A program made the position numbers and the translations under genes. The notes beneath the pieces were generated by a model. The model was not told the DNA's origin, searched no databases, and worked only from the letters and a program-made list of their open reading frames with translations. DNA of 64,000 nt from positions 434,001 through 498,000 of the forward strand of contig NZ_CANMDB010000001.1 in the NCBI RefSeq assembly GCF_947496515.1, read 5' to 3'. The DNA is from an uncultured Roseobacter sp. Lineage in GTDB: Bacteria > Pseudomonadota > Alphaproteobacteria > Rhodobacterales > Rhodobacteraceae. This document shows, one piece after another, positions 10,006 to 56,819 of this stretch. Numbering within the stretch: position 1 is the stretch's first letter; each line of letters begins with the position of its first letter.

Positions 10006-10009
10006 CTCC

Positions 10010-12100: not shown

Positions 12101-12107
12101 GCCAGGG

Positions 12108-13559: not shown

Positions 13560-13560
13560 G

Positions 13561-41184: not shown

Positions 41185-41961
41185 TCAGGGATGCTGCGGC
41201 AGCGGCGTCTTTTCCATCTTTCGCAGCAGATCCACGAACCCGGCCACCTGATGCCGCGCCGTCTCCGCCCCTTTTTCGGCCGTGGCGAGATGGGCCTCCC
41301 CCACGGTGCCCTCGGGATTGAGATCGCTGGCAATCCAGCCGTAGGACACCGGACCAATGGGTGAAATTGCCGTCTCCTCCGCGGTAGAGCGGAAATCCTG
41401 CGCCTTGCTCATATCAACCGTTTCGGGCCGAAAGTGCAGCATTAGTGAGGTCTCCACATCGCCGCCATGGATGCCAAAGCGTTGCTCCCGCTCGGAGTAG
41501 AGATGCGCGGGTGCACCGAAGGCGCCCCATTGGCATTTGACGGCGAGCATGCCCGCCTGGACCCGCAACTCCCGTGTCAGAATAGAGACCAGATCCAGGT
41601 TGCCCCCGTGGGAGTTGATGATGGCAATCTTGCGAATGCCCGCGCGCGCCACGCTGAGGCCGATCTCCGTCCAGGCAGACAGAGCCGTGGCAGCACTCAG
41701 CGTCAGGGTGCCAGCGGCCCAGAGATGTTCGTTCGATTTGCCCACCGCTTGCAGCGGCAGGATACGCAGATCCAGATCTGCCGGGGCCTGCACCCGCAGT
41801 TCGGCCAACATCCCCTGCCCGATCAGCGTATCGGTGCCCACCGGCAGATGCGGCCCGTGCTGCTCGATCGCCGCCGTGGGGAGGATCGCGATCGTCTTCA
41901 TGGGATCAAGATCCACGAAATCCGGGGCGCGATAATCGGCCCAGTCGCGCGCGCCGCTCAT
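41185..41961 (-). CDS. Creatininase-family amidohydrolase
   Basis: Metal-dependent hydrolase of the creatininase fold, which includes creatinine amidohydrolase, the ArfB deformylase and MftE. The 258 residues carry the metal ligands E33, H35 and D44 in EQHGPHLPVGTD, NSHGGN at 116-121 and HGGDVET with E170. It is the last gene of a nine-gene operon, its ATG overlapping the oxygenase stop (ATGA). In this setting it may open an amide bond in a heterocyclic ring or remove an N-acyl group. The exact substrate cannot be told from sequence. Confidence 0.85.
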   Translation of the reverse strand: MSGARDWADYRAPDFVDLDPMKTIAILPTAAIEQHGPHLPVGTDTLIGQGMLAELRVQAPADLDLRILPLQAVGKSNEHLWAAGTLTLSAATALSAWTEIGLSVARAGIRKIAIINSHGGNLDLVSILTRELRVQAGMLAVKCQWGAFGAPAHLYSEREQRFGIHGGDVETSLMLHFRPETVDMSKAQDFRSTAEETAISPIGPVSYGWIASDLNPEGTVGEAHLATAEKGAETARHQVAGFVDLLRKMEKTPLPQHP

Positions 41962-42878
41962 GCGTGGGCCTTGGGCGGATAGGTGGCATCAAGACGCGAC
42001 TGCAGATAATCGGCCGCGCGAACCGGCGGATACTTTGCCTGCCCCGTCCCGGGCAGAGCGGCCACAACCGTATCGGGGTTCGCCTCGACAAAGAAGGCCA
42101 CGGACCGCCGTTGTTTTTTGGGGGGCAGCACCCGGTGGGGTGTGGAGACGTAAATATCGTTGGTCCAGCGCATGAGGCAGTCACCGATGTTGACCACATA
42201 AGCCCCCGGCACATGCGGCACATCCGTCCAGTCACCTCCGCGCGGACGCACTTGCAGCCCGCCCTCGCCATCCGTCATCAGCAGCGTGATGGCCCCGTAG
42301 TCCGTGTGTGCGCCAGCGCCGATCTCGTCTGTAGCCCCGGTGGAGGGCGGATAGTGCAGCAGGCGAAGTGCGGCGAGCGGATCCTGAAAAGCGGACGTGA
42401 AATGCTCCGGTTCCAGCCCCAGATCGGCGGCAAAGGCGCGGTGAATGTCCACGCCCAGAGCAAGTGCGGCGTCATAGTAATCCAGCATCGTCTGCCGGAA
42501 CCCATCAATTTCAGGCCAGACGTTCACCCCACGGAACGGATCCCCGCGCCTGACGCGGGGATCTCCCGGTTCCAGATCGAGCCCGATGTTGAAGCTCTCC
42601 TTGCGGTCCACCTGACCGGATGTGTCATCGAGGGATTCGTCTCCCTGTGCTGCCCAACCGCGATAGTGCGGCGTCTTCAGGATGGACAGCGCCTCCTTGT
42701 CCGCCACGGAAAGCGCGAAGAACGCCGCCGCCATCTCAAAGACGCGGTCGCGCAGAGCCTCCGGCACCGTATGGTGCTGCAGCAGGAAAAACCCAGGCCC
42801 CCGGACCGCCGCCCCCAGATCCCGCAGAAATCCTGCGCGGTCGTGCTCAAACCGCCGCCAGTCGAGAACCGGGATCAT
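41958..42878 (-). CDS. 2-oxoglutarate/Fe(II) oxygenase, isopenicillin N synthase-like family
   Basis: Non-heme iron oxygenase of the DIOX/IPNS fold. The ATG at 42878 (ATGA overlap with the preceding gene) gives 306 residues. Iron ligands are H191 and D193 (HTDYGAITL) and H248 (TPHRV); the 2-oxoglutarate-binding RxS is R257/S259. The DIOX_N region is residues 1-115. Fungal thymine-7-hydroxylase belongs to the same family, which is relevant because the operon also encodes a cytosine deaminase-like enzyme and a pyrimidine-type importer. Codons for residues around 105-113 contain a 25-bp palindrome. Confidence 0.87.
   Translation of the reverse strand: MIPVLDWRRFEHDRAGFLRDLGAAVRGPGFFLLQHHTVPEALRDRVFEMAAAFFALSVADKEALSILKTPHYRGWAAQGDESLDDTSGQVDRKESFNIGLDLEPGDPRVRRGDPFRGVNVWPEIDGFRQTMLDYYDAALALGVDIHRAFAADLGLEPEHFTSAFQDPLAALRLLHYPPSTGATDEIGAGAHTDYGAITLLMTDGEGGLQVRPRGGDWTDVPHVPGAYVVNIGDCLMRWTNDIYVSTPHRVLPPKKQRRSVAFFVEANPDTVVAALPGTGQAKYPPVRAADYLQSRLDATYPPKAHA
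42539..42563. repeat. Repeat-like palindrome inside the oxygenase gene
   Basis: GATCCCCGCG (42539-42548), spacer CCTGA, then CGCGGGGATC (42554-42563). The layout (GATCC...GGATC, 5-nt spacer CCTGA) copies the extragenic unit at 31942-31964. It lies in frame, encoding the stretch GDPRVRRGD, which has the usual family length, so nothing appears inserted. Confidence 0.6.
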
Positions 42879-43504
42879 GCGCGCACCTCCTTGCCACGCC
42901 CGCCGGGAAGGCCGAGGAAGCTGCCCATCCGCGCACTGACCCTGTCGAGATGCGCTGCCCGGCTGGCGGGGGTGGAGCTGTCCATCAGGTAATGCGCGGC
43001 AAAAACCGTCCGGCAGCGCCGCGAACAGATGGCTCGCACCCCGCGCAGGATCGTCCGTTTTCCCGGCGCACCGATCATCTGCGTCAGCCACCAGCTGGCA
43101 CCACAGGTCGTAAAGACACCCAGCCGGGTGATGTGGGTCAATCCCGGCCGGATGTTGTCGTTCTGACCATCCGGCATCAGAAAGGCCACATCGGGCAGCA
43201 ACACCCGGTCCAGCCACCCTTTCAGCATGGCGGGCAGCCCGTACCACCACGTCGGGTAAACAAAGATCAGCGTATCGCACCACAGGATGTGCTCCACGTC
43301 CTGCGCAACCGGCGCACGGTTGCAGGTGGTATCCTCGTAGATGTCGAGCTCCCCAGAGCTCAGCACCGGAGAGAAGTCGCCGCGATACAGATCAATGAGC
43401 CGCGTCTCCGCACCTGCCTCGCGCAGCTTATCCATCACCCTGTCGCGCACCGCAGCGGTGAAACTGGTCTCTTTCGGGTGGCAGTACACAATCAGGGCCC
43501 GCAT
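42875..43504 (-). CDS. Flavodoxin-fold NAD(P)H oxidoreductase (first of a pair)
   Basis: NAD(P)H:quinone oxidoreductase/FMN reductase type protein of 209 residues. The N-terminal ALIVYCHPKETSF binds the flavin phosphate, and FVYPTWWYGLPAMLKGWLDRV (residues 81-101) is the Flavodoxin_2 hallmark. It starts directly after the stop of its paralogue (no intervening base) and overlaps the oxygenase gene. It may supply reduced flavin or reduce a pathway intermediate. The substrate is unknown. Confidence 0.83.
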   Translation of the reverse strand: MRALIVYCHPKETSFTAAVRDRVMDKLREAGAETRLIDLYRGDFSPVLSSGELDIYEDTTCNRAPVAQDVEHILWCDTLIFVYPTWWYGLPAMLKGWLDRVLLPDVAFLMPDGQNDNIRPGLTHITRLGVFTTCGASWWLTQMIGAPGKRTILRGVRAICSRRCRTVFAAHYLMDSSTPASRAAHLDRVSARMGSFLGLPGGRGKEVRA

Positions 43505-44086
43505 TCAAAATCTCTCCATTTCAGCGTCGATCCGGGCCAGAAACCCGGCGCGTTGTGCATCCGTCGCGCGATTCATGTCATAGAGCGCAAGATACCGCAT
43601 CTTGTCCGGGCGACACACGTGCCGCACAGCGCGGGTGACCACACGCCGTGGCGGATCTCCCACCAGCAGTGCCCGCATGCGGCTGCCGCCATAGGTCGTT
43701 ACAGCCGCCAGCTTGCGGATATTGCGCAGGTTCGGGCGAACGCGGCCCTGATCCAGGGTAAAGGACACACCCGGTAGAAAAACACGGTCAAAAAAGCCCT
43801 TCAGGATCGCCGGATAGCCGAAATTCCACACGGGAAACACCATCACCAGCGCCTCGGCCCGGCGCAAGCGATCCACGTATTCGTCCACCGCACCGGTATT
43901 GCCCGGCGCATCGTGATAGCCCCGCCGCTCCTCGGCGGTCAGCACGGGCGAAAACCCTTCGGCGTTCAGATCGCAATCGTCCACATCCCAGCCCCGCGCC
44001 AGCAAGCCATCCACGACGCGGGTGTGCAGCGCGGCAGAAAAACTCTCCTCGCAGGGGTGCGCAAAAAGGACGAGCGCTGCGGTCAT
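43505..44086 (-). CDS. Flavodoxin-fold NAD(P)H oxidoreductase (second of a pair)
   Basis: A 193-residue paralogue of the next gene. It has ALVLFAHPCEESF at the N-terminus and VFPVWNFGYPAILKGFFDRV (residues 80-99), the matching flavodoxin-fold motif. The ATG overlaps the FAD oxidase stop (ATGA). Two adjacent but clearly diverged copies suggest different partners or a heterodimer rather than a recent duplication. Function beyond the family is not known. Confidence 0.83.
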   Translation of the reverse strand: MTAALVLFAHPCEESFSAALHTRVVDGLLARGWDVDDCDLNAEGFSPVLTAEERRGYHDAPGNTGAVDEYVDRLRRAEALVMVFPVWNFGYPAILKGFFDRVFLPGVSFTLDQGRVRPNLRNIRKLAAVTTYGGSRMRALLVGDPPRRVVTRAVRHVCRPDKMRYLALYDMNRATDAQRAGFLARIDAEMERF

Positions 44087-45483
44087 TCTGCAGCGCGCAG
44101 GTTCGGGTAGGCATACATCCGGTCATAGGCCCAATCGGGATCGTCCCAGGCGATCATCTTGCCGGGGTTCAGCAACCCCTTGGGATCTGCCTCGCGCTTG
44201 AAGGCCAGCTGGCGGTCATCCACGGTCTGCCGCCCGCCTTCCTCCAGCGTGTAGCGGTGGGGGTTGAAGATCATCGCACCTGCGTCCTCATGCATCTTCA
44301 CAATCTCGTCGAGGCGCGCCTCGGTGGTGAACTTCACAAGGCTGAGCCCGGCAAAGATCACCTTGCCGCCCTCGCGCAGCACTTCGAGATGTTGCAGCAC
44401 TTCGGGGCTGAGGGCATCGCGCAGCTGTTTCACAAGGTCCAGATGGTCTGGCGCGCCGTATCGGACCTGCAGATAGGTGATGCTGGGGTCCACCTTGAGC
44501 GCGCGCAGCGTTGTATGGTTCCAGCCGTACTCAAAGATGGTGCCCGGTCCACGCTCCCAGTCGGAAGCGTCGCTGCGATAGATCAGCCGCGCGTCGGGTC
44601 GCCGATCCAGGAACGTCTCGAAACCGTCCATGGACTGAGGTGCGACCATCAGCGCGATCAGGCTGGTGCCCGCTTCCACATGCGGGGCGACGCGCTGAAA
44701 GTAGTCCTTGGCAATGGGCGCCTCGAACACGGTGGCGAGCTTGATCAGGATGCCGTCTTCATTGGCCAGCTCCTCGGCAAACTGAGCTGCCTGCATGAAG
44801 TCCTCGGTGGCAACGAACATCTCCACCCAGTCGTAAGCCGGTGCCAGCGGGATCTCGATCTCCGTGATGATGCCGTTCGTGCCATAGGCATGGCTGACGC
44901 GGGCAAGCTCCTCGCCGCGGAACTCCAGCACGCGGGGTTCTTCCTCCATGGTGACCACCCGCAGGCGAATGATGTTGCCCAGATCGCGCAAGGATCCCCA
45001 GGTGCAGGAACCGACCCCGCCCGAGCCGCCCGCGATAAACCCGCCGATTGTCGCCGTGGCCCAGGTGGAGGAAAACATGCGAATTTCCTGGCCCGAGTGC
45101 TCCTTGCAGGCGGCATCCAGATCCTTGAGCAAACATCCCGGTTCCACGACCACGCGACCCGGGTGGATCTCCTTCACGGCCGCCATGTGGCGCAGGTGCA
45201 TCACACAGCCGCCTGCCAGCGGCATCGCCTGACCGTAGTTGCCCGTCCCCGCACCGCGGGTGGTGACTGGCACGTCATGGACGTAGCAGACCCGCAGCAC
45301 CTCGATCACCTCGGCCTCGGTGCGAGGGGCCACGACGAAATCCGCCGACACCCCATCAAGCCGCGCCTTGAGCACGGGCGAGTACCAAAAGAAATCCCGG
45401 CTCTTGGCCTTGAGCCCGGCGCCACTGTCTTCCAGATCCAGATGCGCAAGGGCGGCTTTGGCAGCTTCAATGTTCGCGGTCAT
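44083..45483 (-). CDS. FAD-binding oxidoreductase (PCMH/GlcD-type)
   Basis: Flavoprotein of the vanillyl-alcohol oxidase/GlcD superfamily. The 466 residues have the FAD-binding PCMH domain at about 45-225 with APRTEAEVIEVLR and TRGAGTGNYGQAMPLAGG (75-92), and SGGVGSCTWGSLRDLGN near 155. A C-terminal substrate domain follows. The gene is coupled on both sides by ATGA overlaps. In the operon it could oxidise an alcohol or hydroxy acid made by the 2OG oxygenase. D-lactate or glycolate dehydrogenase similarity is general and does not fix the substrate. Confidence 0.85.
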   Translation of the reverse strand: MTANIEAAKAALAHLDLEDSGAGLKAKSRDFFWYSPVLKARLDGVSADFVVAPRTEAEVIEVLRVCYVHDVPVTTRGAGTGNYGQAMPLAGGCVMHLRHMAAVKEIHPGRVVVEPGCLLKDLDAACKEHSGQEIRMFSSTWATATIGGFIAGGSGGVGSCTWGSLRDLGNIIRLRVVTMEEEPRVLEFRGEELARVSHAYGTNGIITEIEIPLAPAYDWVEMFVATEDFMQAAQFAEELANEDGILIKLATVFEAPIAKDYFQRVAPHVEAGTSLIALMVAPQSMDGFETFLDRRPDARLIYRSDASDWERGPGTIFEYGWNHTTLRALKVDPSITYLQVRYGAPDHLDLVKQLRDALSPEVLQHLEVLREGGKVIFAGLSLVKFTTEARLDEIVKMHEDAGAMIFNPHRYTLEEGGRQTVDDRQLAFKREADPKGLLNPGKMIAWDDPDWAYDRMYAYPNLRAAE

Positions 45484-46742
45484 GGCGTCCTCATGAGATG
45501 GTCAAGTTCGGCATAATCGGGCAGCGTCCGGTCGATCTGGCGGCCCCCGCGCAGGACGATCCGGTCGGACTGAGGACGGGCGAAAAGCTCCGTCCAGCTG
45601 CGCGCGCGGCAGATCACCAGATCGGCCGGTGCGCCGGGCGTCAGACCCGGCGCCTCCAGCCCACAGGCCGCCGCCGGGTTGGTCGTGAATGCCTGCGCCC
45701 AGTCCCCGTCCGAATGATCCAGATGCCCGATCCGCGTTGCCTCCCGCATCACCTCGATCATGTCGAGATCGCCGTAGGCGTAGAAGGGATCGCGGGTATT
45801 GTCGGAGGCGAAACTCACCGGCACGCCCCGCGCCTTCAACTCGTGCACCAGGGTGATGCCCCGCATCCGTGGCGTGCCCTCCTGCCTGTCCTGCAGGTAG
45901 AGATTGCACATGGGCAGAGAGACGGCATGCAGCCCCGCGCGCGCCACCAGATCCATCGTGTCGCCGGCGCGGGCGTCTTCCTGCGTGCTGAGCGAACATA
46001 AATGGCCAACGACCACCGGCGCATCAAAGCCCGTTTCGATCACCGTCTCGGCGATCAGCCGCAGCGTCTCCGAGCTGGGATCGAGCGTCTCATCCACGTG
46101 AAAGTCCGCGGCAAGCCCGTGCTTGCCTGCCAGATCGAAGAAATAGCGCAGCCGGTCGGCCAGATCCGGCACGGGGTAGGCCACCATGCCCAGCACACCG
46201 CCTGTCTCTGCCACGATCTTTGCCGTCCGGTTGAACTCCGTCCCGGGCCCCACGCCTTCGCATCCCAGAAGGCAGGCGGCCTGCAACGCGATCTTGTCTC
46301 GCCAGCGGTCCCGCATCTCCGCAAAGACAGGCCAGGAAATCGCGTCCTGCGGCGGGATACTGTCGATATGCGTGCGAATGGCGCGGGTGCCATGGGCGTA
46401 GGCGCAGCGCAGGGCGAAATCCATCCGAGTGGCCACATCCTCCGCCGTCCAGTTGGCTTGCCGATCGGCCCCCACCGTGTCCAACGCACCGGGAAAGCTG
46501 CCGTCGGGGTTGGGGCTGCGCGGCCAGATATGACCCTTGTCGAGATGCGTGTGCATGTCCACAAAGGCGGGAAAGACCATCGCCCCCTTCATGTCCACCG
46601 GTTGGCCGGGCGCATCGGTGATCTGCCCATCGCAAAGGCTCAAATCGGTCTGTATCAGATCCCGTCCATCGCCCATCAGACACCCCGGCACAGTGAGGTT
46701 TTGCAGCGTCACGTGACCTGCGGGAAGGACCTTGAAATCCAT
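45480..46742 (-). CDS. CodA-like amidohydrolase (cytosine deaminase family)
   Basis: Metal-dependent deaminase of the CodA family. The ATG at 46742 (TGATG overlap with the permease) gives 420 residues. Metal and catalytic residues are H64 and H66 (DMHTHLDK), H215 and E218 (FHVDET), H247 (GHLCSLS) and D314 (FASDNTRDPFYAYGDLD), a near-complete CodA signature. Members deaminate cytosine, isoguanine or creatinine-like rings. Its place directly after an NMT1/THI5-type importer suggests it acts first on the imported compound. Confidence 0.87.
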   Translation of the reverse strand: MDFKVLPAGHVTLQNLTVPGCLMGDGRDLIQTDLSLCDGQITDAPGQPVDMKGAMVFPAFVDMHTHLDKGHIWPRSPNPDGSFPGALDTVGADRQANWTAEDVATRMDFALRCAYAHGTRAIRTHIDSIPPQDAISWPVFAEMRDRWRDKIALQAACLLGCEGVGPGTEFNRTAKIVAETGGVLGMVAYPVPDLADRLRYFFDLAGKHGLAADFHVDETLDPSSETLRLIAETVIETGFDAPVVVGHLCSLSTQEDARAGDTMDLVARAGLHAVSLPMCNLYLQDRQEGTPRMRGITLVHELKARGVPVSFASDNTRDPFYAYGDLDMIEVMREATRIGHLDHSDGDWAQAFTTNPAAACGLEAPGLTPGAPADLVICRARSWTELFARPQSDRIVLRGGRQIDRTLPDYAELDHLMRTP

Positions 46743-47599
46743 CAGCGATCCCGGCTCAGCGCGCTTTCGTGCCACTTGCGCAGCAGCATGTGGCTGAGAA
46801 AGCTGAGCCCGGCAAAGATGATCACGCCCGTCACAGCGATCAGGATCAGCGCCGCGAACATCCGCGGGATGTTGAGCCTGTAACCCGCCTCCAATATTCG
46901 AAAGGCCAGCCCCGATTTGAGCCCGCCCGTGCCCGCCACATACTCCGCAACCACAGCGCCGATCAGCGATAGCCCGCCCGCTATGCGCAAGCCGCCGAGG
47001 AAATACGGCAGCGCCGAGGGCAGTTGCAGAAACCGCAGCGTCTGCCAGCGCGAGGCACCGTAGATGCGGAAAAGGTCGCGCAGGTTATGATCGGCCGAGT
47101 TCAGACCCAGCGTCGTGTTGCTCAACACAGGAAAAAACGCCACCAGCCAGGCACAGAGCAACAGCCCCGCAATGCGGCTGTCCACATAAATGAAGATCAA
47201 GGGTGCGATGGCCACGATGGGCGTCACCTGCAGGATGACCGCGTAGGGGTAGAAACTCATCTCCACCAGTCGCGACTGGGTGAAAAGCACCGCGAGCCCC
47301 ACCCCGCCGATCACCGCAACGGCAAGCGCCATCAGGGTGATCTGCACCGTGACCAGAAGCGCCTCGAACAGCATCGCCCAATCATCGATCAACGTCTGCA
47401 GTACAAGCCCGGGACCTGGCAGGATGTAATGGGGGATCTCATTCCAGACGACAATGCGGTCCCAGAGGCCCAGCATCAGCACCAGCACAACGGCAGGCAG
47501 GATCCACTTGCCAAACCGTTCCAGCCGACGCGCGCGCAGCCGGGCGACCTCGTCGGGATCTACCGCCGTGACCTGCTCCGTGGGCTCTGCGATGCTCAT
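46742..47599 (-). CDS. ABC transporter permease (ThiX/SsuC type)
   Basis: Inner-membrane permease of 285 residues with six hydrophobic segments, beginning after a charged N-terminus at about 32-50. The BPD_transp motif is DLFRIYGASRWQTLRFLQLPSALPYFLGG (near 195-223). It partners the ATPase and binding protein encoded just upstream, with ATGA and TGATG overlaps. The family imports nitrate, sulfonates, taurine or thiamine pyrimidine precursors. Confidence 0.9.
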   Translation of the reverse strand: MSIAEPTEQVTAVDPDEVARLRARRLERFGKWILPAVVLVLMLGLWDRIVVWNEIPHYILPGPGLVLQTLIDDWAMLFEALLVTVQITLMALAVAVIGGVGLAVLFTQSRLVEMSFYPYAVILQVTPIVAIAPLIFIYVDSRIAGLLLCAWLVAFFPVLSNTTLGLNSADHNLRDLFRIYGASRWQTLRFLQLPSALPYFLGGLRIAGGLSLIGAVVAEYVAGTGGLKSGLAFRILEAGYRLNIPRMFAALILIAVTGVIIFAGLSFLSHMLLRKWHESALSRDR

Positions 47600-48381
47600 G
47601 CGGCCTCTCCCATGGCTTCGTGCAGCGCATCTGTCGCGCGGCGGGTGTAGCCTGCATATTCGCTGGAGGTGCGAAAGGCATCGTCGCGCGGATAGGCGGC
47701 ATCGACGCTCAGTTCCGTGATCACGCGACCCGGCCGCGCGGCCATCACAACGATGCGATCCGACAAGAAAACGGATTCAAACACGGAGTGGGTGACGAAG
47801 ATGACCGTGCAGCCAATAGCTTCCTTGAGACGCAACAGATCATTGTTGAGCCGAAAGCGCGTGATCTCGTCCAGCGCCGCAAAAGGCTCGTCCATCAGGA
47901 TAAGCCGTGGTCGCGTGACCATGGCGCGCGCGATAGAGACCCGCATCTTCATGCCCCCCGACAGCTCGCGCGGATAGCTCGACTGGAAGCGCTCGAGCCC
48001 CACGAGCTTGAGCGCTTCGAGCACCTCGTCCCGCACCGACGAGTAGGGTTGGCCGCGCAAACGGAAAGGGAGCCAGACGTTTTGCGCAACCGTGGCCCAG
48101 GGCATAAGCGTTGGTTCCTGAAAAACAACGCCCAGATCGCCCACACCCTGCCCTTCGGTCCAGGTGATGCGCCCCGCGGTGGGATGCAGCAGGTCAGAGA
48201 TAAGCCGCAGGGCAGTCGATTTCCCGCAGCCCGAGGGGCCGAGCAAGGAGATGAAATCTCCTGTCCGCACCTCAAGCGACATCCCCTTGAGCGCGACCAC
48301 GTCGCCGCCGAAGGTTTTGTCGACCCGCTCCATTCGCAATAGCGTGGGCCGGGCGGTTCCCGGCCTGTCCGCTGCTGTCAT
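47596..48381 (-). CDS. ABC transporter ATPase (SsuB/ThiZ type)
   Basis: ATPase of the same importer, 261 residues. Walker A is GPSGCGKS (48-55), the signature is LSGGMKMR, Walker B is LILMDEPFAALD and the H-loop reads VTHSVFE, all intact. It starts 52 bp after the binding-protein gene, across a small stem-loop, and overlaps the permease gene by ATGA. Confidence 0.92.
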   Translation of the reverse strand: MTAADRPGTARPTLLRMERVDKTFGGDVVALKGMSLEVRTGDFISLLGPSGCGKSTALRLISDLLHPTAGRITWTEGQGVGDLGVVFQEPTLMPWATVAQNVWLPFRLRGQPYSSVRDEVLEALKLVGLERFQSSYPRELSGGMKMRVSIARAMVTRPRLILMDEPFAALDEITRFRLNNDLLRLKEAIGCTVIFVTHSVFESVFLSDRIVVMAARPGRVITELSVDAAYPRDDAFRTSSEYAGYTRRATDALHEAMGEAA

Positions 48382-48409
48382 ACATCCCCCAAACAGCTAT
48401 CCCGCGCCG

Positions 48410-48425
48410 GGCTGCGGGTGCAGCC
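48410..48425 (-). terminator. Stem-loop after the NMT1/THI5-type binding-protein gene
   Basis: GGCTGC (48410-48415) pairs with GCAGCC (48420-48425) around a GGGT loop, in the 52-bp gap before the ATPase gene. It fits the pattern of a stem-loop after each binding-protein gene in this window. Confidence 0.4.
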
Positions 48426-48433
48426 TCGCCCGC

Positions 48434-49435
48434 TCAGGGCTTGATGTCCATGCCAACGGATTTGTTCGTGAACTCCAGCGTGTAGGCGGACTGCCAATCC
48501 AACCCGTCTTCCAGCACGCCCGCGGCAACCATCTTGGCGTAAAAATCGCCGATCACCTCATCAGTCATCGAGCCGATTCCCATCTCCAGCGCTGAGCCGC
48601 TGTCCACGATGCCCTCTTGCAGCATCATGTTCTTGGCAAAGTCGATCTTGTCCTGGCTCATGTCCGGATTGGCGGCCATGATCATCTCATCCGCAGCGCT
48701 GCTGTCACCGTAAAGGTAGTTGTACCAACCGGTCAGCGATCCGTCGACGAAACAGGTGACCTTTTCGGGATCTTCGGCGATGGTGTCCGCCATCGTCTCA
48801 ATCGTGGTTGCGTAAGAGGAATAGCCCGCATCCGCGATCAGGAAAACGTCCGGTTTGATCCCGGCTTCCTTCTCGACGGCATAGGGTTCGGAGCTGAGAT
48901 AGCCCTGCATGCCCTTTTGAGTATCGGCAATGAAAGGTGCGGGGTTGAAGGTATAAGGTTCGCGCTGCTCGACCGTGAAGCCGTGTTCCGCAATCATCCA
49001 CTGGTAGTAGGAGGTGAAGCCGTTGTCGCCGATCAACAAGGTCAGGTCTTTGAGGTCATCCCAGCTCTCGGCCTCACCGGGATGGGCCAGGATCACCTGC
49101 GGATGCTTCTGAAAGATCGCCGCGACCGAGACAACGGGGATCCCTTCCTTAACCGCGTTGAAGGCCTGCAGCATGTCGCCACCCATGTGGAAATCAATGC
49201 GGCCCGCCAGCATCAGCGCACGGTTGTTCACCTGCGGCCCGCCCGAGATAATTTCGACCTCCAGCCCGCAGTCCGCGTAGGTGCCGTCCGCGACAGATTG
49301 ATAAAAGCCACCGTGCTCTGCCTGCGCCAGCCAGTTTGTCCCGAAAACGACGGGTGTGAGGTCGGTGTCTGCCAGGGCGGCGGTCGCGCCGAGGCTGAGG
49401 GCGCACGCCAGCGTGGTAACGGGGGAAAGGGTCAT
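48434..49435 (-). CDS. ABC substrate-binding protein, NMT1/THI5 family
   Basis: Periplasmic binding protein resembling those for thiamine pyrimidine precursors. The ATG at 49435 is preceded by GGAG and gives 333 residues; an upstream in-frame ATG at 49447 is less well placed. The signal peptide is about 26 residues (ACALSLGATAALA). The mature start has TNWLAQAEHGGFYQ, the THI5/NMT1 pyrimidine-pocket motif, and SGGPQVNNRALMLAG. First gene of the nine-gene operon. A pyrimidine-like ligand is inferred; nitrate- or sulfonate-type ligands are less likely by this motif. Confidence 0.87.
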   Translation of the reverse strand: MTLSPVTTLACALSLGATAALADTDLTPVVFGTNWLAQAEHGGFYQSVADGTYADCGLEVEIISGGPQVNNRALMLAGRIDFHMGGDMLQAFNAVKEGIPVVSVAAIFQKHPQVILAHPGEAESWDDLKDLTLLIGDNGFTSYYQWMIAEHGFTVEQREPYTFNPAPFIADTQKGMQGYLSSEPYAVEKEAGIKPDVFLIADAGYSSYATTIETMADTIAEDPEKVTCFVDGSLTGWYNYLYGDSSAADEMIMAANPDMSQDKIDFAKNMMLQEGIVDSGSALEMGIGSMTDEVIGDFYAKMVAAGVLEDGLDWQSAYTLEFTNKSVGMDIKP

Positions 49436-49620: not shown

Positions 49621-49640
49621 CACCGCATTCGAATGCGGTG
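49621..49640. repeat. Perfect 20-bp palindrome, copy 1
   Basis: CACCGCATTCGAATGCGGTG is a perfect palindrome. It overlaps a second hairpin, GCGGTGTG (49635-49642) with CACACCGC (49649-49656), so two alternative structures are possible. It shares the 16-bp core CCGCATTCGAATGCGG with copy 2. Confidence 0.75.
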
Positions 49641-49806: not shown

Positions 49807-49826
49807 CGCCGCATTCGAATGCGGCG
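49807..49826. repeat. Perfect 20-bp palindrome, copy 2
   Basis: CGCCGCATTCGAATGCGGCG is a perfect palindrome sharing the 16-bp core with copy 1. Both copies are followed by GC-rich sequence containing GCGCGC and GGAT(T)GC, which suggests a larger shared unit of about 50 bp. It ends 33 bp from the bhcD stop. Confidence 0.75.
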
Positions 49827-49858: not shown

Positions 49859-50836
49859 TTAGAGCGCGACCGTGGTTGCCCGACCGGTTTCCTCGGCCAT
49901 CTTCGCGGCCACCGCCGCCACAGCCAGATCCTGAAGCCCGACACCCGTTCCGTCAAAGAGCGTAATCTCTTCTGCGGTGGACCGCCCACGATGATCGCCG
50001 TTGATCACCGCGCCGATGGGCGTTATCGCGTCTTCCTTGAGGTGACCGGCCGCCACCGCGTGCTGCGCCTCGCCGATGCTGACGGATTGCGCAACCTCAT
50101 CGGTGAAAACTGTGGCGCGGCTGAGCAGCATCGGGTCCACCTCCTGCTTGCCCTTGGTGTCCGTTCCCATGCAGGCGATATGCGTGCCCGGTTTGATCCA
50201 CTCTGCCATCAGCAGCGGCTCAAACGCCGAGGTGATCGTAATAATGACATCCGCCTGCGCACCCAGTTCTTCGGCGCTGACCGCCTCGAACCCCAGCCCC
50301 AACTCTTCGGCCACAGCACCCAGTTTTGGCAACATCTCGGGGTGCGGGTTCCATGCAACGACCCGGTCAAAGCTGCGCTGCTCTGCTGCGGCGCGCAGTT
50401 GAAAGGTGGATTGATGCCCTGCGCCTACCATGCCCAGGACCTTGGCATCCTCACGCGCCAGATGCGCGATGGAGACCGAGGAAGACGCCGCCGTGCGCAC
50501 AGCGGTCAAATAGTTCCCGCCCACCAGTGCCCGCAGTTTTCCGGTATCGGGATCGAACAGGAAAATCGTCGACTGATGGTTCGTCAGCCCTTTGTCGGCG
50601 TTCCCGGGCCAATAGCCACCGGATTTCAGACCCAGTGACTTCCCGGCCCTGTCGAACCCTGATTTAAAGCCATAAAGCGCATCCGCGTAGCCGATGGCCT
50701 CACGGATCACGGGGAAGTTGTAGGCGTCGCCCGAGGCCATGGCACCAAACACGGCTTCCACAGCCGTGAAGGCCTCCGCCCGGCTGACGACCTCCGCGCA
50801 GACCTCCTCTGTCACGATCAACAACCCGTCTGCCAT
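49859..50836 (-). CDS. bhcD: Iminosuccinate reductase BhcD (ornithine cyclodeaminase family)
   Basis: Reduces iminosuccinate to aspartate with NADH, closing the beta-hydroxyaspartate cycle. The 325 residues are of the ornithine cyclodeaminase/mu-crystallin fold: LTAVRTAASSSVSIAHLARE and the Rossmann motif GMVGAGHQSTFQLRAA near 126-141. Family membership alone would not give this function; it follows from the complete bhcA-B-C-D gene order known in Paracoccus denitrificans. It lies 74 bp after bhcC with a small hairpin between. Confidence 0.9.
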   Translation of the reverse strand: MADGLLIVTEEVCAEVVSRAEAFTAVEAVFGAMASGDAYNFPVIREAIGYADALYGFKSGFDRAGKSLGLKSGGYWPGNADKGLTNHQSTIFLFDPDTGKLRALVGGNYLTAVRTAASSSVSIAHLAREDAKVLGMVGAGHQSTFQLRAAAEQRSFDRVVAWNPHPEMLPKLGAVAEELGLGFEAVSAEELGAQADVIITITSAFEPLLMAEWIKPGTHIACMGTDTKGKQEVDPMLLSRATVFTDEVAQSVSIGEAQHAVAAGHLKEDAITPIGAVINGDHRGRSTAEEITLFDGTGVGLQDLAVAAVAAKMAEETGRATTVAL

Positions 50837-50872
50837 GCTCTACCCCTCGTCTTTTGTGATATTATGGGCCGT

Positions 50873-50889
50873 GCCGGGCGGTACCCGGC
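50873..50889 (-). terminator. Small hairpin between bhcC and bhcD
   Basis: GCCGGG (50873-50878) pairs with CCCGGC (50884-50889) around a 5-nt loop in the only sizeable gap (74 bp) inside the bhc operon. It may tune bhcD relative to bhcABC. Confidence 0.35.
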
Positions 50890-50910
50890 CCGGCAATGCC
50901 GAAAACTTGA

Positions 50911-52074
50911 TCAGTATGCCTTGCCGCGCGCCGACACAGGCCAGAGCGTCTCGACCTTGCCACCGCGCACCCCCACGTACCAGTCGTGCACATTGCAGGT
51001 CGGGTCGCAGTGCCCTGGCACGAGTTTCAGCTTGTCATTGACCTTGAGTACGCCATCAGGGTCGGCAACAACGCCGTGCTCATCAGAGCATTTGACGTAT
51101 TCCACATCCGAACGACCGTAGATCGTCGGCAGACCACTGTCCACGGATTGCGCCTTGAGCCCGGCATCCACGATCGCCTTGTCGGCCTTGGCGTGGCTCA
51201 TCACCGATGTCAGGATAAATAGGGCGTTCTCCCACTCTCCCTCGTCGATGCGATTGCCGTCCTTGTCCAGAATGCGGCCATAATCCGCATCCATGAAGGC
51301 GTAGGAGCCGCATTGCAGCTCGTTGAAGACGCCCGAGTTGCTCTCGAAATAATAGGACCCAGTGCCGCCACCGCCGACGATGTCGCACTCCAGCCCCTCG
51401 GCCTTCAGCATCTCGATGCTTTCGCGCACCTGATCAATGGCAATCTGGGTCTTTTCCTGCCGGTCGGCATAGCTGTCCATATGCTGCATCGCGCCCTGAT
51501 AGGCTTGCAGACCGGCAAATTTCAAACCCTCGGCCGCGTCAATGGCCTTGGCCAGATCGACCACGGGCTGACCGTATTGCACGCCGCAACGACCCGCGCC
51601 GACGTCGATTTCGACCAGACACTCGATCTCCGTCCCGTGGCGTAACGCCGCCTCAGACAAATCGGCCACGTTGTCGAGATCATCCACACAGCAGATCGCC
51701 CGCGCACCCAGCTTGGGCAACCGGGCCAGCCGGTCGATCTTGGCCGGATCGCGCACTTGGTTGGAGACCAGCACGTCCTTGATACCACCGCGGGCGAACA
51801 CTTCCGCCTCCGACACCTTCTGGCAGCATACACCGACCGAGCCGCCAAGACGTTCCTGCAACAGCGCCACATCCACCGATTTGTGCATCTTGCCGTGCAC
51901 CCGGTGCCGCATACCATGGCTCCGCGCATAGTCGCCCATCTTCTTGATATTGCGCTCCAGCGCATCAAGGTCAAGCACGAGGCACGGTGTCTGAATGTCG
52001 GCCTCGTCCATGCCGATGGCGGCGGGAATATCGTAGCCGACCTCATAGTCGTCGAAATTGACCTGCTTGTTCAT
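50911..52074 (-). CDS. bhcC: Beta-hydroxyaspartate aldolase BhcC (DSD1/alanine racemase-like PLP fold)
   Basis: Condenses glycine with glyoxylate to (2R,3S)-beta-hydroxyaspartate, the carbon-joining step of the cycle. The 387 residues have the N-terminal PLP lysine in HGKMHK (K62 by analogy), a PLP-phosphate region VGGGGTGSYYFES (glycines near 230) and a C-terminal metal-binding PGHCDPTCNVHDW. It is 12 bp after bhcB. D-threonine aldolase or D-serine dehydratase would be the default family name; the operon decides the function. Confidence 0.92.
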   Translation of the reverse strand: MNKQVNFDDYEVGYDIPAAIGMDEADIQTPCLVLDLDALERNIKKMGDYARSHGMRHRVHGKMHKSVDVALLQERLGGSVGVCCQKVSEAEVFARGGIKDVLVSNQVRDPAKIDRLARLPKLGARAICCVDDLDNVADLSEAALRHGTEIECLVEIDVGAGRCGVQYGQPVVDLAKAIDAAEGLKFAGLQAYQGAMQHMDSYADRQEKTQIAIDQVRESIEMLKAEGLECDIVGGGGTGSYYFESNSGVFNELQCGSYAFMDADYGRILDKDGNRIDEGEWENALFILTSVMSHAKADKAIVDAGLKAQSVDSGLPTIYGRSDVEYVKCSDEHGVVADPDGVLKVNDKLKLVPGHCDPTCNVHDWYVGVRGGKVETLWPVSARGKAY

Positions 52075-52086
52075 GTCATCTCCTCC

Positions 52087-53058
52087 TTAGCCCAGGGTCC
52101 AGGGCAGTTTATCCAAATCCACATTGCCGCCGGTGACGATCACGCCCACGCGCTTGCCACGGAATACCTCCGGGTTGCGCAGGATCGTGGCCAGTGGCAC
52201 GGCACAGCTCGGCTCCATCACGATCTTCATGCGCTCCCAGGTGAGCTTCATCGCGTCGATGATTTCCTGCTCACTGGCGGTCAGCACATCGGTAACGAAC
52301 TGCGATACAAAGTGCCATGTGTTCTCTTTCAGTGGCACCTTCAACCCGTCGGCGATCGTATTCGGCGCATCATCCGCAATGATGTGTCCCGCACGAAAGG
52401 ACCGTGCGGCATCGTCGGCCTGATCAGGTTCAGCGGCGTAGATCTCTATCCCCGGCGCGAGGTTGGAGAGCGTCAGACACGTCCCCGAGATCATGCCGCC
52501 ACCGCCGATGGGCGCGATAACCGCATCCATTGTATCGATCTGATCCAGCATTTCCAGCGAACAGGTGGCCTGGCCGGCAATCACGCGCGGATCATTGTAT
52601 GGATGTACGAAATCAGCACCCGTTGCTTCGTGAACCTCCGCAAAAACAGCTTCGCGTGAGGTGGTAGAAGGCTCGCATTCGGTGATGATGCCGCCATACC
52701 CGCGTACCGCCGCCTTCTTGGCCTCGGGTGCGGTGCGCGGCATGACCACATGACAGGGGATGCCGCGGCGCCCAGCGGCGTAGCTGAGCGACAAGGCGTG
52801 ATTGCCCGACGAATGGGTGGCAACCCCTTTCTCCGCCATGGCGTCGCTCAGACCGAAGACAGCGTTGGATGCGCCCCGCACCTTGAACGCCCCGGCCTTC
52901 TGGAAGTTCTCGCATTTGAAGAACAGCTCCGCTCCGGTCAGCTCGTTCATATAGGACGAGGTTAGGATCGGTGTGCAGTGAATATGCGGCTTGATCCGCT
53001 GATGCGCCGCCTTCACATGCGCAATCGTCAGATCCGGTCCGGTCAAAACATCAAGCAT
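52087..53058 (-). CDS. bhcB: Beta-hydroxyaspartate dehydratase BhcB (serine/threonine dehydratase-like)
   Basis: PLP enzyme dehydrating beta-hydroxyaspartate to iminosuccinate. The 323 residues are fold type II: PLP lysine K59 in GAFKVRGA, the substrate loop SSGNHA (83-88) and the phosphate-binding GGGGMISG near 178. No C-terminal ACT domain is present, as in serine racemase-like members. It lies 11 bp after bhcA and 12 bp before bhcC. Confidence 0.92.
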   Translation of the reverse strand: MLDVLTGPDLTIAHVKAAHQRIKPHIHCTPILTSSYMNELTGAELFFKCENFQKAGAFKVRGASNAVFGLSDAMAEKGVATHSSGNHALSLSYAAGRRGIPCHVVMPRTAPEAKKAAVRGYGGIITECEPSTTSREAVFAEVHEATGADFVHPYNDPRVIAGQATCSLEMLDQIDTMDAVIAPIGGGGMISGTCLTLSNLAPGIEIYAAEPDQADDAARSFRAGHIIADDAPNTIADGLKVPLKENTWHFVSQFVTDVLTASEQEIIDAMKLTWERMKIVMEPSCAVPLATILRNPEVFRGKRVGVIVTGGNVDLDKLPWTLG

Positions 53059-53069
53059 GTGGGCTCCCT

Positions 53070-54260
53070 TCAGGCTGCAGTTTGAACAAAGGCGCTACGG
53101 TGCTGGCGGAAGTACCCCTGCGCTGCCGCAACCCCGCTTCCGAGCTCAACGGAATAGTCCAGATCGGCCATCGCCATCTCGATTGTGGCCAGCCCGGACA
53201 GAGTCATGACATCCGTCAGACTGCCCAGATGCCCGATCCGGAACGCCTTGCCATTCATCTCTCCAAGGCCCACGCCAAAGGACACGCCATAGGCGTTGAA
53301 GGCCTGATCGGTCAGCTGATTGCTGTCGAACCCGTCGGGCACATAGATCGCGCTGACCGTATTCGAGTAGAGCGACCGGTCCTTGGCCACGAGGCGCATC
53401 CCCCAAGCATCAACGGCCCGCCGGACCCCTTCGGCGAGGCGAAAGTGCCGTGCGTAGACATTCTCCAGACCTTCTTCGAACAGCATCGAGAGGCTTTCCC
53501 GCAGCCCGTAAATGAGTTGCAGCGGCGGCGTATAGGGATAGCCCCCGGCCTTGTTCGACGTCAGCATGTCGCGAAAGTCAAAAAACGTCCGTGGCAGCTG
53601 CGCGGTCTCCATCGCCGCGATTGCCTTTGGACTGACGCCGAGGATCGCCATCCCGGTCGCCAGCATGAACCCTTTTTGCGAGCCGGAGACGGCAATATCC
53701 ACCCCCCAGGCATCCATCTCGAACGGCATGGACGCCAGCGAACTGACGCAATCCGCAAACAGCATCGCGGGGTGGCTTGCCGCATCCATGGCCGCACGCA
53801 CTGCCGCGATGTCAGACACAACGCCGGTCGCTGTTTCATTATGAGTGACAAGCACCGCCTTGATCTGATGCGATTTATCGGCGCTGAGAGCCTGCTCGAA
53901 CTGATCCGCTGGCGCGCCCATGCCCCAAGGACAGTCGATGATGTCAACCTGGAGCCCGTGACGCTGACACAGATCAATCCAGCGGTGACTGAACATCCCG
54001 TATCGCCCCACCAGAACGCGGTCGCCGGGGCTGAGCGTGTTACAGATCGCCGCCTCCCAACCGCCCGTCCCGCTCGCCGGAAAGGTGATGATCTGACCTT
54101 CAGACGTTCCGAAAACGCGTTTGGTATCCTCCAGCACGGGCGCCAGCGTTTCGACAAAGTCCGGTGCGCGGTGATCGCGGGTCTGCATATTCATCGCAGC
54201 ACGCAACCGGTCGGGGATGTTGGTCGGTCCTGGGATAAATACGGGGTTCTGCTCTGACAT
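53070..54260 (-). CDS. bhcA: Aspartate-glyoxylate aminotransferase BhcA (class V)
   Basis: Transfers the amino group from aspartate to glyoxylate, giving glycine and oxaloacetate. The ATG at 54260, preceded by GAGGAGG, gives 396 residues (MSEQNPVFIPGPTNIP). PLP contacts are D170 (LFADCVSS) and Schiff-base lysine K196 (SGSQKGFM); GTGGWEAAI (65-73) holds the phosphate. An upstream open extension to 54707 runs through the promoter and into bhcR and is rejected. First gene of the operon. Confidence 0.93.
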   Translation of the reverse strand: MSEQNPVFIPGPTNIPDRLRAAMNMQTRDHRAPDFVETLAPVLEDTKRVFGTSEGQIITFPASGTGGWEAAICNTLSPGDRVLVGRYGMFSHRWIDLCQRHGLQVDIIDCPWGMGAPADQFEQALSADKSHQIKAVLVTHNETATGVVSDIAAVRAAMDAASHPAMLFADCVSSLASMPFEMDAWGVDIAVSGSQKGFMLATGMAILGVSPKAIAAMETAQLPRTFFDFRDMLTSNKAGGYPYTPPLQLIYGLRESLSMLFEEGLENVYARHFRLAEGVRRAVDAWGMRLVAKDRSLYSNTVSAIYVPDGFDSNQLTDQAFNAYGVSFGVGLGEMNGKAFRIGHLGSLTDVMTLSGLATIEMAMADLDYSVELGSGVAAAQGYFRQHRSAFVQTAA

Positions 54261-54312
54261 CACGATCTCCTCCTCAGCCAGCGGTAGAATATCAGATAGC
54301 GTCCGGGTCGCA

Positions 54313-54346
54313 ATTTTCTCGAAAATATTTTTCACTATAGTTCGAA
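54313..54346. promoter_or_regulatory. Candidate BhcR binding region
   Basis: In the AT-rich bhcA/bhcR gap, ATTTTC (54313-54318) and GAAAAT (54321-54326) form a perfect inverted repeat with a 2-nt spacer, and a second site with TTCGAAAAT starts at 54341. A further TTTTCATTTTCGG stretch lies near 54380-54395. BhcR of Paracoccus is known to bind this intergenic region and to release it with glyoxylate. The exact sites are inferred. Confidence 0.5.
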
Positions 54347-54462
54347 AATACCTATGTCCTTGCTTTGGATGACATATCCCTTTTTCATTTTCGGTCTCAT
54401 CAGCGCTCTTGAAATTATTTTTCATCGCGTCATCGTTTGTAAAAGCCGATGAGGAGCTTGCC

Positions 54463-55287
54463 GTGACCCCAAAGAAACGCCCCCGCGGGCGCCCCAAATC
54501 TGTCTTTCGCGAGAGCAGCGCGGGAACCCTGCAGTCGCTCGACCGTGCCCTCGGCGTCCTGACCGCGGTCGCAGAGGCGGGCAGCCTGACGCTGAGCGAT
54601 GCGGCGATGATTTTGGGCATACCCACCGCGACGACGCACCGGATCCTCACCACCTTGCAGAAACACGGCTTTGTGACCTTCGATGAAGAGGAGCAGGCCT
54701 GGGCCATCGGGATCGAGGCCTATCGCACCGGTGCGTCCTTCATGAACCGCACCGGCCTGAGCACGGTCAGCCGCCCTGTCATGCGCAGCTTGATGGAAAA
54801 GACGGGCGAGACCGCAAACCTCGCCATTCCGGACGGGGCGGAGGTGGTCTTTGTCGGGCAGGTGGAAACCGCCAACCCCATCCGCGCCTTCTTTGCCCGC
54901 GGCACTCGAACGGCGATGCACGCCTCCGGCACCGGCAAGGCCATTCTGTCGGCCCTGCCGGAGACGCGTGCGCGCAAGCTCTTGATGTCGGCTGGTCTCA
55001 CGCGCTTCACCGACCGGACGCTGGTGAGCGCCGAGGCGCTCTTTGCCGATCTCGCCGTCAGCCGGGCGCGGGGCTGGTCATTTGACGGGGAAGAACGGCA
55101 TGGTGGGATGTCCTGCATCGGTGCCGTGATCTACGACGAGCACGGCGAGCCCTGCGCGGGTGTGTCGATCTCGGGGCCCAGCACGCGGTTTGATGCGCTG
55201 CGTGTACCCGAACTGGGGGGGATGGTGGCGGATGCCGCCACCCAGATCACCCGTTTGATTGGGGGCGCGGCGCCTCTCGGCCAGTGA
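54463..55287 (+). CDS. bhcR: IclR-family regulator BhcR of the beta-hydroxyaspartate cycle
   Basis: Glyoxylate-responsive regulator of bhcABCD (known in Paracoccus). The GTG at 54463, preceded by GAGGAG, gives 274 residues; an in-frame ATG at 54409 would add 18 residues without its own site. A basic N-terminus (PKKRPRGRPK) precedes the IclR winged HTH at about 25-80 (LTLSDAAMILGIPTATTHRIL). The effector domain includes HASGTGKAILSALPE. Its 3' end overlaps the convergent matB by 41 bp. Confidence 0.92.
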   Translation: MTPKKRPRGRPKSVFRESSAGTLQSLDRALGVLTAVAEAGSLTLSDAAMILGIPTATTHRILTTLQKHGFVTFDEEEQAWAIGIEAYRTGASFMNRTGLSTVSRPVMRSLMEKTGETANLAIPDGAEVVFVGQVETANPIRAFFARGTRTAMHASGTGKAILSALPETRARKLLMSAGLTRFTDRTLVSAEALFADLAVSRARGWSFDGEERHGGMSCIGAVIYDEHGEPCAGVSISGPSTRFDALRVPELGGMVADAATQITRLIGGAAPLGQ

Positions 55288-56791
55288 AGAGATCTGCGTA
55301 TTCCTCGCGCAGCACGTTTTTTTGCACCTTGCCCATGGTGTTGCGCGGCAGCTCTGGTAGCACGATCAGTTTGCGGGGATGCTTGAAACGCGCCAAGGCC
55401 TCGGCGACCTCTGCCGCGATGGCGTCCAGCTCCGGCTCCGCCGCTCCCTCGGCCACGATGAAGCCCACGACCGTCTCCCCAAAATCCGGATGCGCCACAC
55501 CAACCACGGCGCTTTCCTTGACGCCGGGTTGCGCATCGAGCACCGCCTCGACCTCCTTGGGGTAGATATTGTAGCCGCCGGAGATGATCAGATCCTTGTT
55601 GCGACCGACGATCTGAAAGTAGCCCTGATCATCCACGAGTGCGAGATCACCGGTGATAAAGAAGCCATCCTCGCGCAGCTCTTCCCGGGTCTTCTCGGGC
55701 ATCTGCCAGTACCCCTGAAAGACGTTAGGGCCGCGCACCTCGATCTGGCCGATCTCACCATCGGGCAATGTCTCGCCCGTCTCAGGGTCGGTGATCTTTG
55801 CCTCGACCCCCGGAAGCGGAACCCCCACCGTGCCCGCCCGGCGCGCGCCATCGTAGGGGTTGGAGGTGATCATATTCGTCTCTGTCATACCGTAGCGTTC
55901 AAGGATGCGGTGACCGGTGCGCGCTTCAAAGCGGTTGTGCGTCTCGGCCAGCAACGGCGCGCTGCCGGAGGTAAAGAGCCGCATCCGCGCCGTCAGATCG
56001 CCGGTGAAGCAGTCGTCGTCGAGCAGACGGGTGTAGAAGGTCGGCACGCCCATCATGGTCGTGGCCTGCGGCAGCAGCGCGATCACCTGATCCAGATCGA
56101 ACCGCGGCAGAAAGATCATGGATCCGCCCGCCATCAGCGTGACGTTGCTCGCCACGAAAAGCCCGTGTGTGTGAAAGATCGGCAGGGCGTGGAGCAGCAC
56201 GTCCTCTGCTGTAAACTGCCACAGGTCGGTCAGCGTCCGGGCGTTGGACAACAGGTTGTCCTGGCTCATCATCGCACCCTTGGAGCGCCCGGTTGTCCCC
56301 GAGGTGTAGAGCAAAGCAGCAAGGTCATCCGGTGCGCGCGCTGCCGTCTCTGTTGACGACTTCAAGGTCGCAGCCCTGTCGGTCAACGACCCTTGCCCCC
56401 GCGCGTCAAGCGTTTCCAACCGCGCGCCAGCCGCTTCGGCTACCGCGCCCAAAGCCTCCGACTTGGCCGGATCGCAGATCAGCAGCCGCGCACCGCTGTT
56501 GCTTACGAAGTATTCAAGCTCCGCCACCGTGTATCCGGTATTCAGAGGCAGAAAGACCACGCCCGTCTGAACCGCCGCGGCATAGAGCGCCAGCGCCTCA
56601 GGCGACTTTTCCGCCTGCAATGCCAGGCGATCCCCGGGCGCGAGCCCCATCCGGTGAAACGCGGCGGCGTATCGTCCCGCCATCTGGAGAAAAGCGCCGT
56701 AGGTCAGGATAGACCCCTCTGCGTCAATCAGAAAAGGCGCATCGCTCGCCGCGTGCGGAGCAAAAAGCGCATCATAAAGCGGGTTTGCCAT
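55247..56791 (-). CDS. matB: Malonyl-CoA synthetase MatB (AMP-forming acyl-CoA synthetase)
   Basis: Activates malonate to malonyl-CoA in the cytoplasm. The ATG at 56791 gives 514 residues (MANPLYDALFAPH). The AMP-binding P-loop YTSGTTGRSKG is at 162-172, followed by GYNIYPKEVEAVL and the catalytic lysine in NTMGKVQKN near 490. It is the last gene after a TRAP transporter, the pairing seen in rhizobial malonate loci (matPQM with matB). The malonyl-CoA decarboxylase gene matA is not in the window. Other dicarboxylate or methylmalonate substrates are possible. The last 41 bp overlap bhcR antisense. Confidence 0.88.
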   Translation of the reverse strand: MANPLYDALFAPHAASDAPFLIDAEGSILTYGAFLQMAGRYAAAFHRMGLAPGDRLALQAEKSPEALALYAAAVQTGVVFLPLNTGYTVAELEYFVSNSGARLLICDPAKSEALGAVAEAAGARLETLDARGQGSLTDRAATLKSSTETAARAPDDLAALLYTSGTTGRSKGAMMSQDNLLSNARTLTDLWQFTAEDVLLHALPIFHTHGLFVASNVTLMAGGSMIFLPRFDLDQVIALLPQATTMMGVPTFYTRLLDDDCFTGDLTARMRLFTSGSAPLLAETHNRFEARTGHRILERYGMTETNMITSNPYDGARRAGTVGVPLPGVEAKITDPETGETLPDGEIGQIEVRGPNVFQGYWQMPEKTREELREDGFFITGDLALVDDQGYFQIVGRNKDLIISGGYNIYPKEVEAVLDAQPGVKESAVVGVAHPDFGETVVGFIVAEGAAEPELDAIAAEVAEALARFKHPRKLIVLPELPRNTMGKVQKNVLREEYADLFTGREAPRPQSNG

Positions 56792-56819
56792 CGTTCGTCC
56801 TTTCCTGTCACAGACTGCC

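Follow-up and report, generated by a model that had tools for sequence, protein, structure and literature searches.

Which compound is imported and broken down by the products of a nine-gene operon in an uncultured Roseobacter sp. of the Rhodobacteraceae? The operon runs from position 49435 to 41185 of the window (the whole analyzed stretch of 64,000 nucleotides, contig NZ_CANMDB010000001.1, positions 434,001 to 498,000), with all nine genes on the minus strand. The original prediction, made from the letters alone, had described a coupled operon for the import and degradation of an N-heterocycle, and had proposed 5-methylcytosine/thymine or a thiamine pyrimidine as the substrate. Its gene content holds: the nine genes match the named families (NMT1, ABC_tran, BPD_transp_1, amidohydrolase NF005759, FAD_binding_4, Flavodoxin_2 twice, DIOX_N with 2OG-FeII_Oxy, and Creatininase) and overlap or abut from the ATPase gene onward. 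The general class of function also fits, while the pyrimidine-type substrate is probably wrong, since the title of PDB entry 6V42, matched by one of the enzymes, names folate catabolism. As far as sequence comparison can tell, the operon probably directs catabolism of the pteridine ring of pterins or folate. No description of the operon as a pathway was found in the literature searched, in which subscription journals are mostly outside coverage and which gives no proof of absence.

The FAD enzyme and its crystallized relative

The flavin adenine dinucleotide (FAD) enzyme carries the argument. In a phmmer search against PDB sequences, it produced a single strong match, 6v42 (E 1.3e-169), followed by the next entry at E 1.2e-12. 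The model of the FAD enzyme, built from a 47-row alignment with a pLDDT of 86.8, aligns with 6v42 in Foldseek at 57% identity over 452 columns and TM 0.92. A homolog encoded in an Agrobacterium version of the operon matches 6V42 even more closely than the window protein does (703.6 bits). A tree of 59 rows places 6V42 and the window protein in one 32-row group (support 100/99), together with operon enzymes of Rhodobacterales, Stappiaceae, and Rhizobiaceae; the tree was rooted at its midpoint, the group is one of its splits, and 6V42 has no firm place inside it. The long-branch warnings and one unsafe join in the tree touch neither 6V42 nor the window protein.

The window FAD enzyme is, therefore, an apparent ortholog, by sequence and predicted fold, of the protein deposited as 'Crystal structure of the flavin oxygenase with cofactor bound involved in folate catabolism'. 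Because this title names folate catabolism, the FAD enzyme points to pterins, and not to 5-methylcytosine/thymine or a thiamine pyrimidine. The 6V42 match, resting on a PDB title, is the strongest evidence for a pterin/folate role. The resemblance to the 6V42/6V43 flavin oxygenase covers sequence, fold, and tree group, and the functional comparison runs through the PDB title, not through operon, organism, or reaction. A separate observation concerns paralogs of the FAD enzyme that stand side by side within one cluster, three in locus L238 and two in L236, perhaps for successive oxidations.

The gene set in relatives and the proposed pterin route

Relatives of the operon were sought in genome contigs with an alignment of the window FAD protein as bait, and the best 80 loci of a larger number were taken. 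Among these, 61 loci with near-full 10-kb flanks and a length of at least 21,300 bases form the full-flank set, in which selection by FAD-protein similarity favors close relatives. Gene presence was scored by clustering at a BLAST identity of at least 44%, or at least 55% for the 2-oxoglutarate (2OG) oxygenase. The three transporter genes, the deaminase, the FAD enzyme, and a reductase occur together in all 61 loci; the creatininase gene accompanies them in 54 and the 2OG oxygenase gene in 22. Because this gene set recurs in 61 loci, the composition of the operon is not due to chance, and the joint conservation proposed as a check on the original prediction did not refute it. RidA is a usual neighbor in these relatives, present nearby in 48 of the 61 loci by clustering and in 53 by profile, and is absent from the window.

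Annotated neighborhoods in Palleronia, Paroceanicella, Sulfitobacter, Rhizobium, and Agrobacterium each contain the transporter, deaminase, FAD enzyme, reductase, creatininase, and RidA. More distant versions of the cluster exist in Klebsiella, a Comamonadaceae bacterium, Mameliella, and Ruegeria TM1040, the last without an NMT1-type transporter, and beta- and gamma-like versions are also present in Rahnella and Pantoea plasmids and further genomes. The FAD protein matches 141 plasmid records. Within the order, a FAD homolog at E 1e-60 was found in 73 of 292 genomes, and one with at least 62% identity in 46 of 292. At the genus level, 9 of 19 genomes, the own genome included, possess a 2OG oxygenase ortholog with at least 80% identity.

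A molybdenum hydroxylase, paoABC, lies beside the Rhizobium and Agrobacterium versions and was rejected as a member, with paoC in 2 of 32 loci (L100-L132 without L104, fetched 10-kb flanks, nearly all Hyphomicrobiales). The deaminase also has relatives in other gene settings, namely in Aminobacter, in Shinella, and on plasmid pADP-1. On the plasmids of Aminobacter SR38 and Shinella HZN7 (L051, L052), a relative with 49-51% identity belongs to a cluster with isochorismatase, tautomerase, DpsA-like, and opine-dehydrogenase-like genes. On the atrazine plasmid pADP-1 (L233, 8491-9822), an amidohydrolase that shares 52.5% identity with the Comamonadaceae deaminase version lies near atzD, atzE, and atzF, and the rest of the cluster is absent.

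The catalytic residues had been predicted to be present, and indeed none of the metal-ligand motifs of the deaminase, 2OG oxygenase, or creatininase-fold protein is disrupted. For the deaminase, 111 rows were aligned (the window and 110 distinct sequences with at least 34% identity or 250 bits, one Klebsiella gene appearing twice). The named residues of the motifs HxHLDK, HxDE, GHxC, and DN are invariant in all rows with the exception of L67, and the metal and catalytic site of CodA (HxH, H..E, H, D) is kept in 111 of 111. In the 2OG oxygenase, H191, D193, H248, R257, and S259 are retained in 27 of 27 aligned relatives, and in the creatininase-fold protein, E33, H35, D44, H118, and E170 are retained in 74 of 74.

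These families suggest the substrates and the order of steps as follows. The importer would take up a pterin or a folate-derived pteridine, from which the amidohydrolase would strip the 2-amino group, converting the pterin to the lumazine type. Oxidation of the pteridine or its C6 side chain would fall to the flavin oxygenase, which both reductases may supply. The optional 2OG oxygenase could be a ring or side-chain hydroxylase, adding a further hydroxyl where it is present. The creatininase-fold enzyme would open or rearrange the resulting cyclic amide, and RidA, in the relatives that have it, would hydrolyze an imine or enamine. The product may enter purine degradation at xanthine; xanthine dehydrogenase is present in the genome (XdhB match 1231 bits, cut-off 849.5). 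BrbF, once annotated as a creatininase, removes formate from a riboflavin precursor, according to PMC9478397, and chemistry on such rings is therefore known for the creatininase family. In logic, the proposed route resembles the Rut pyrimidine pathway, with flavin oxygenation, an amidase, a RidA-type deaminase, and a flavin reductase; none of the nine genes is assigned to a Rut family.

Part of a pterin/folate role was foreseen by others, in the deposition of 6V42 and in studies of pterin deaminases. Fan et al. reportedly proposed, in 2013, an undescribed pterin degradation pathway. According to PMC9513972, before the pterin deaminase (PDA) of Variovorax F1, deamination of folic acid had been demonstrated for just one pterin deaminase, Arad3529 of Agrobacterium radiobacter K84; the Variovorax enzyme is 37% identical to it. 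Both enzymes share with the proposed window deaminase the deamination of cyclic amidines, a comparison by description and not by sequence. The Variovorax enzyme was cloned with a primer placed in the 'endoribonuclease' genes downstream of predicted V. paradoxus deaminase genes, as stated in PMC9513972. In the passages of that paper considered here, a deaminase and carboxypeptidase G are reported and no gene cluster, unlike the window operon. An endoribonuclease gene lies downstream in the V. paradoxus relatives, and several gamma versions of the cluster have RidA.

RidA proteins have long been annotated as endoribonuclease L-PSP. In the annotated gamma loci of Klebsiella (L048), Rahnella (L234), and Pantoea (L235), RidA directly follows the deaminase gene, as it does in L226, L227, and L231 by weak profile hits (35-40 bits). 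Profiles for the scan of L226, L227, and L231, and for those of the riboswitch and FAD regions below, were built from 91 loci after removal of odd-length rows, with hits below 34% identity also removed from six families; the open reading frame starts in these scans are mechanical.

Several points weigh against a pterin/folate role. The function of 6V42 is known from its title alone, as no paper behind the entry was found in the literature searched. Among twelve further alphaproteobacterial FAD regions, L242 and L244 combine the FAD gene with transporter genes and have no deaminase relative in view, and L237 contains the FAD gene alone with approximately 10 kb of the upstream side in view. The reading of the 'endoribonuclease' of PMC9513972 as RidA assumes that an outdated annotation label is meant. 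In the Comamonadaceae locus L049, from the family of Variovorax, RidA is located at the far end of the cluster and not behind the deaminase, and profile searches found no RidA in L225 or in the window. Furthermore, relatives of the deaminase and of the 2OG oxygenase stand beside xanthine riboswitches, where the FAD and creatininase genes are absent.

Purine, pyrimidine, and creatinine readings

The last point leads to a purine pathway, in which a guanine-, xanthine-, or urate-like purine would be imported and oxidized, with the deaminase and the 2OG oxygenase acting on purines; this is considered unlikely. Rfam scans detected the xanthine riboswitch RF03054 in 2 of 31 cluster loci, those of Klebsiella (L048) and Rahnella (L234), both Enterobacterales. 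In each, the riboswitch is located upstream of an operon divergent from the cluster, encoding a binding protein, an amidohydrolase, and a 2OG-Fe(II) oxygenase. In the case of Klebsiella, this amidohydrolase is a PRK12393 match and the oxygenase is 33% identical to that of the window. According to PMC7373994, isopenicillin-N-synthase-like dioxygenases, NMT1 proteins, and amidohydrolases are among the genes behind this riboswitch, which matches parts of the operon, and the precise functions of the associated dioxygenases are not established.

Across the phylum, the riboswitch is present in 16 of 398 genomes. Of 17 regions around it, 13 contain 2OG oxygenase relatives and 14 contain binding-protein relatives, which are strong in 4 cases; one region, L178, contains a strong deaminase relative. 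This region (8476-14779, genome G441, of the same class) has two xanthine riboswitches, the first followed by binding protein, ATPase, and permease, and the second by the 2OG oxygenase, LysR, and the deaminase relative. In G074, a genome of the window's own family, a 2OG relative neighbors the riboswitch, and the FAD enzyme is encoded on a different contig; altogether, 5 of the 16 riboswitch genomes encode the FAD enzyme elsewhere. The deaminase family is found in 5 of 16 riboswitch genomes versus 24 of 382 others (Fisher p 0.0036, uncorrected for kinship and on the assumption that both genome draws gave the same 398 genomes).

Against a purine substrate, neither the FAD gene nor the creatininase gene occurs in any of the 17 riboswitch regions, and the 6V42 title speaks of folate, not purine, catabolism. 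RF03054 is also absent from window positions 37000-62000 at E up to 1, from the Pantoea locus, and from 59 genomes, the own genome included, in a scan in which the control genomes were silent too. The gene set of the xanthine riboswitch (NMT1 motif) thus shares with the window operon an NMT1 binding protein, an isopenicillin-N-synthase-like 2OG oxygenase, and amidohydrolases, and differs from it in the riboswitch itself and in the lack of the FAD and creatininase genes. The riboswitch regulon shares parts with the pathway of the operon and is not the same. Judging by the riboswitches of Klebsiella and Rahnella, the route may feed into xanthine, or some of its parts may act on purines.

The first of these options can be joined to the pterin/folate role. 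McNutt, and Rappold and Bacher, are said to have described the conversion of a lumazine-type pteridine via tetraoxypteridine and xanthine-8-carboxylate to xanthine. The operon might, as a tentative and rather doubtful extension, be the genetically unassigned bacterial route that contracts a pteridine to a purine. The creatininase-fold protein would then be the 'tetraoxypteridine isomerase', with the amide of the pyrazine ring opened and reclosed as an imidazole, and hydroxylation of a pteridine would be the task of the 2OG oxygenase. Since such a route ends in xanthine, it would account for two cluster versions sitting beside xanthine-sensing OFF riboswitches. It would unite the pterin and riboswitch facts.

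Import of 5-methylcytosine/thymine or a thiamine pyrimidine, followed by deamination, methyl hydroxylation, and ring opening, is improbable. The binding protein does match the NMT1/THI5 family; PMC7373994 calls such annotations misleading for riboswitch-linked genes. Its relatives in the PDB are weak, namely 4nmy at E 0.0011 and, weaker still, the thiamine-pyrimidine (FAMP) binding protein 3ix1 at E 0.036. No thiamine pyrophosphate (TPP) or HMP riboswitch was detected in the scanned window stretch or the 31 scanned loci, and no thiamine-named gene was seen in the annotated neighborhoods viewed. Among solved structures, a fungal thymine dioxygenase ranks third in closeness to the oxygenase (147.7 bits), behind 9ovh and 6jyv, and, with the gene in a minority of the full-flank loci, methyl hydroxylation is unlikely as the core step.

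The deaminase likewise departs from the CodA-like identity that had been proposed for it. It scores far above the cut-off (403) of NF005759, a model named cytosine deaminase, and far lower on other cytosine deaminase models (166 and 116 bits). Gln156, Asp314, and Trp319 of E. coli CodA presumably shape the cytosine pocket. The Gln156 column holds Cys in the window deaminase and Gln in none of the 111 rows (alignment to 1k6w; the 4r7w alignment has a gap there), and Trp319 is replaced by Phe in 110 rows and by Tyr in one. Asp314 is Asn in all 111 rows, a weak criterion, as 4r7w has Ser at this position.

The use of creatinine or hydantoin by a creatininase and a CodA-like creatinine deaminase is suggested by family names only and is hardly credible: the creatininase-fold protein, whose best models are MftE and creatininase, falls below both cut-offs, scoring 78.6 bits on the creatininase model TIGR04448 (cut-off 235), it carries NSHGGN where creatininase has NGHYEN, and family searches found no creatinase or hydantoinase among the nine genes. 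The 4.9-Mb genome contains two creatininase-family genes. Homarine catabolism was rejected, as no such gene set appeared in the literature searched and the 6V42 match pointed elsewhere.

Operon layout, flanking genes, and meaning

The genes of the operon are listed in the table below. A gap of 52 bp separates the end of the binding-protein gene from the ATPase gene. Overlaps of 4 bp are found at the ATPase/permease, deaminase/FAD enzyme, FAD enzyme/reductase 1, reductase 2/2OG oxygenase, and 2OG oxygenase/creatininase junctions; the two reductase genes abut, and the permease stop and the deaminase ATG share one base. The deaminase most likely starts at this ATG (46742, 420 aa) rather than at the mechanical GTG at 46775.

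Table. Genes of the operon in order of transcription, with window coordinates
Feature	Coordinates	Strand	Match
NMT1/THI5-like periplasmic solute-binding protein, 333 aa	48434..49435	-	Pfam PF09084, 66.7 bits
ABC transporter ATPase	47596..48381	-	PF00005
ABC transporter permease	46742..47599	-	PF00528
Amidohydrolase, annotated 'cytosine deaminase' (PRK07583/NF005759), proposed pterin deaminase	45480..46742	-	NF005759, 600 bits
FAD enzyme, FAD_binding_4 (PCMH) type, proposed pteridine flavin oxygenase	44083..45483	-	6v42 match
Flavodoxin-fold NAD(P)H oxidoreductase 1	43505..44086	-	PF02525, 95.1 bits
Flavodoxin-fold NAD(P)H oxidoreductase 2	42875..43504	-	PF02525, 109.3 bits
2OG-Fe(II) oxygenase, IPNS/DIOX_N type, optional member	41958..42878	-	PF03171, PF14226
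Creatininase-fold amidase, proposed ring-opening or ring-rearranging cyclic amidase	41185..41961	-	PF02633, 222.4 bits

Directly upstream of the operon, the complete beta-hydroxyaspartate cycle genes bhcABCD are located on the minus strand (window 49859-54707), with BhcD, BhcC, BhcB, and BhcA all exceeding their NCBIfam cut-offs. BhcB, BhcC, and BhcD occur in none of the 61 full-flank loci; thus, bhcABCD is taken as a neighbor and not a partner. The gap between bhcD and the operon contains two copies of the perfect 14-bp palindrome CGCATTCGAATGCG (window 49624-49637 and 49810-49823), which are its only exact occurrences in the own genome. It matched nowhere in the 194 loci searched and is not counted as part of the operon; the two copies may be an operator pair or a rearrangement scar. 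Further along the minus strand (window 55247-58298), a malonyl-CoA synthase gene (NF005702, over cut-off) adjoins a TRAP large permease gene.

The reactions of pteridine breakdown were reportedly described in the 1960s-70s without genes. If the pterin/folate role is true, many proteobacterial genes labeled 'cytosine deaminase', 'creatininase', and 'NMT1/THI5' would belong to one pathway that recycles the nitrogen and carbon of folate and pterins. The operon would simultaneously supply named candidates for the pteridine reactions, and part of the genes associated with xanthine riboswitches may be explained.

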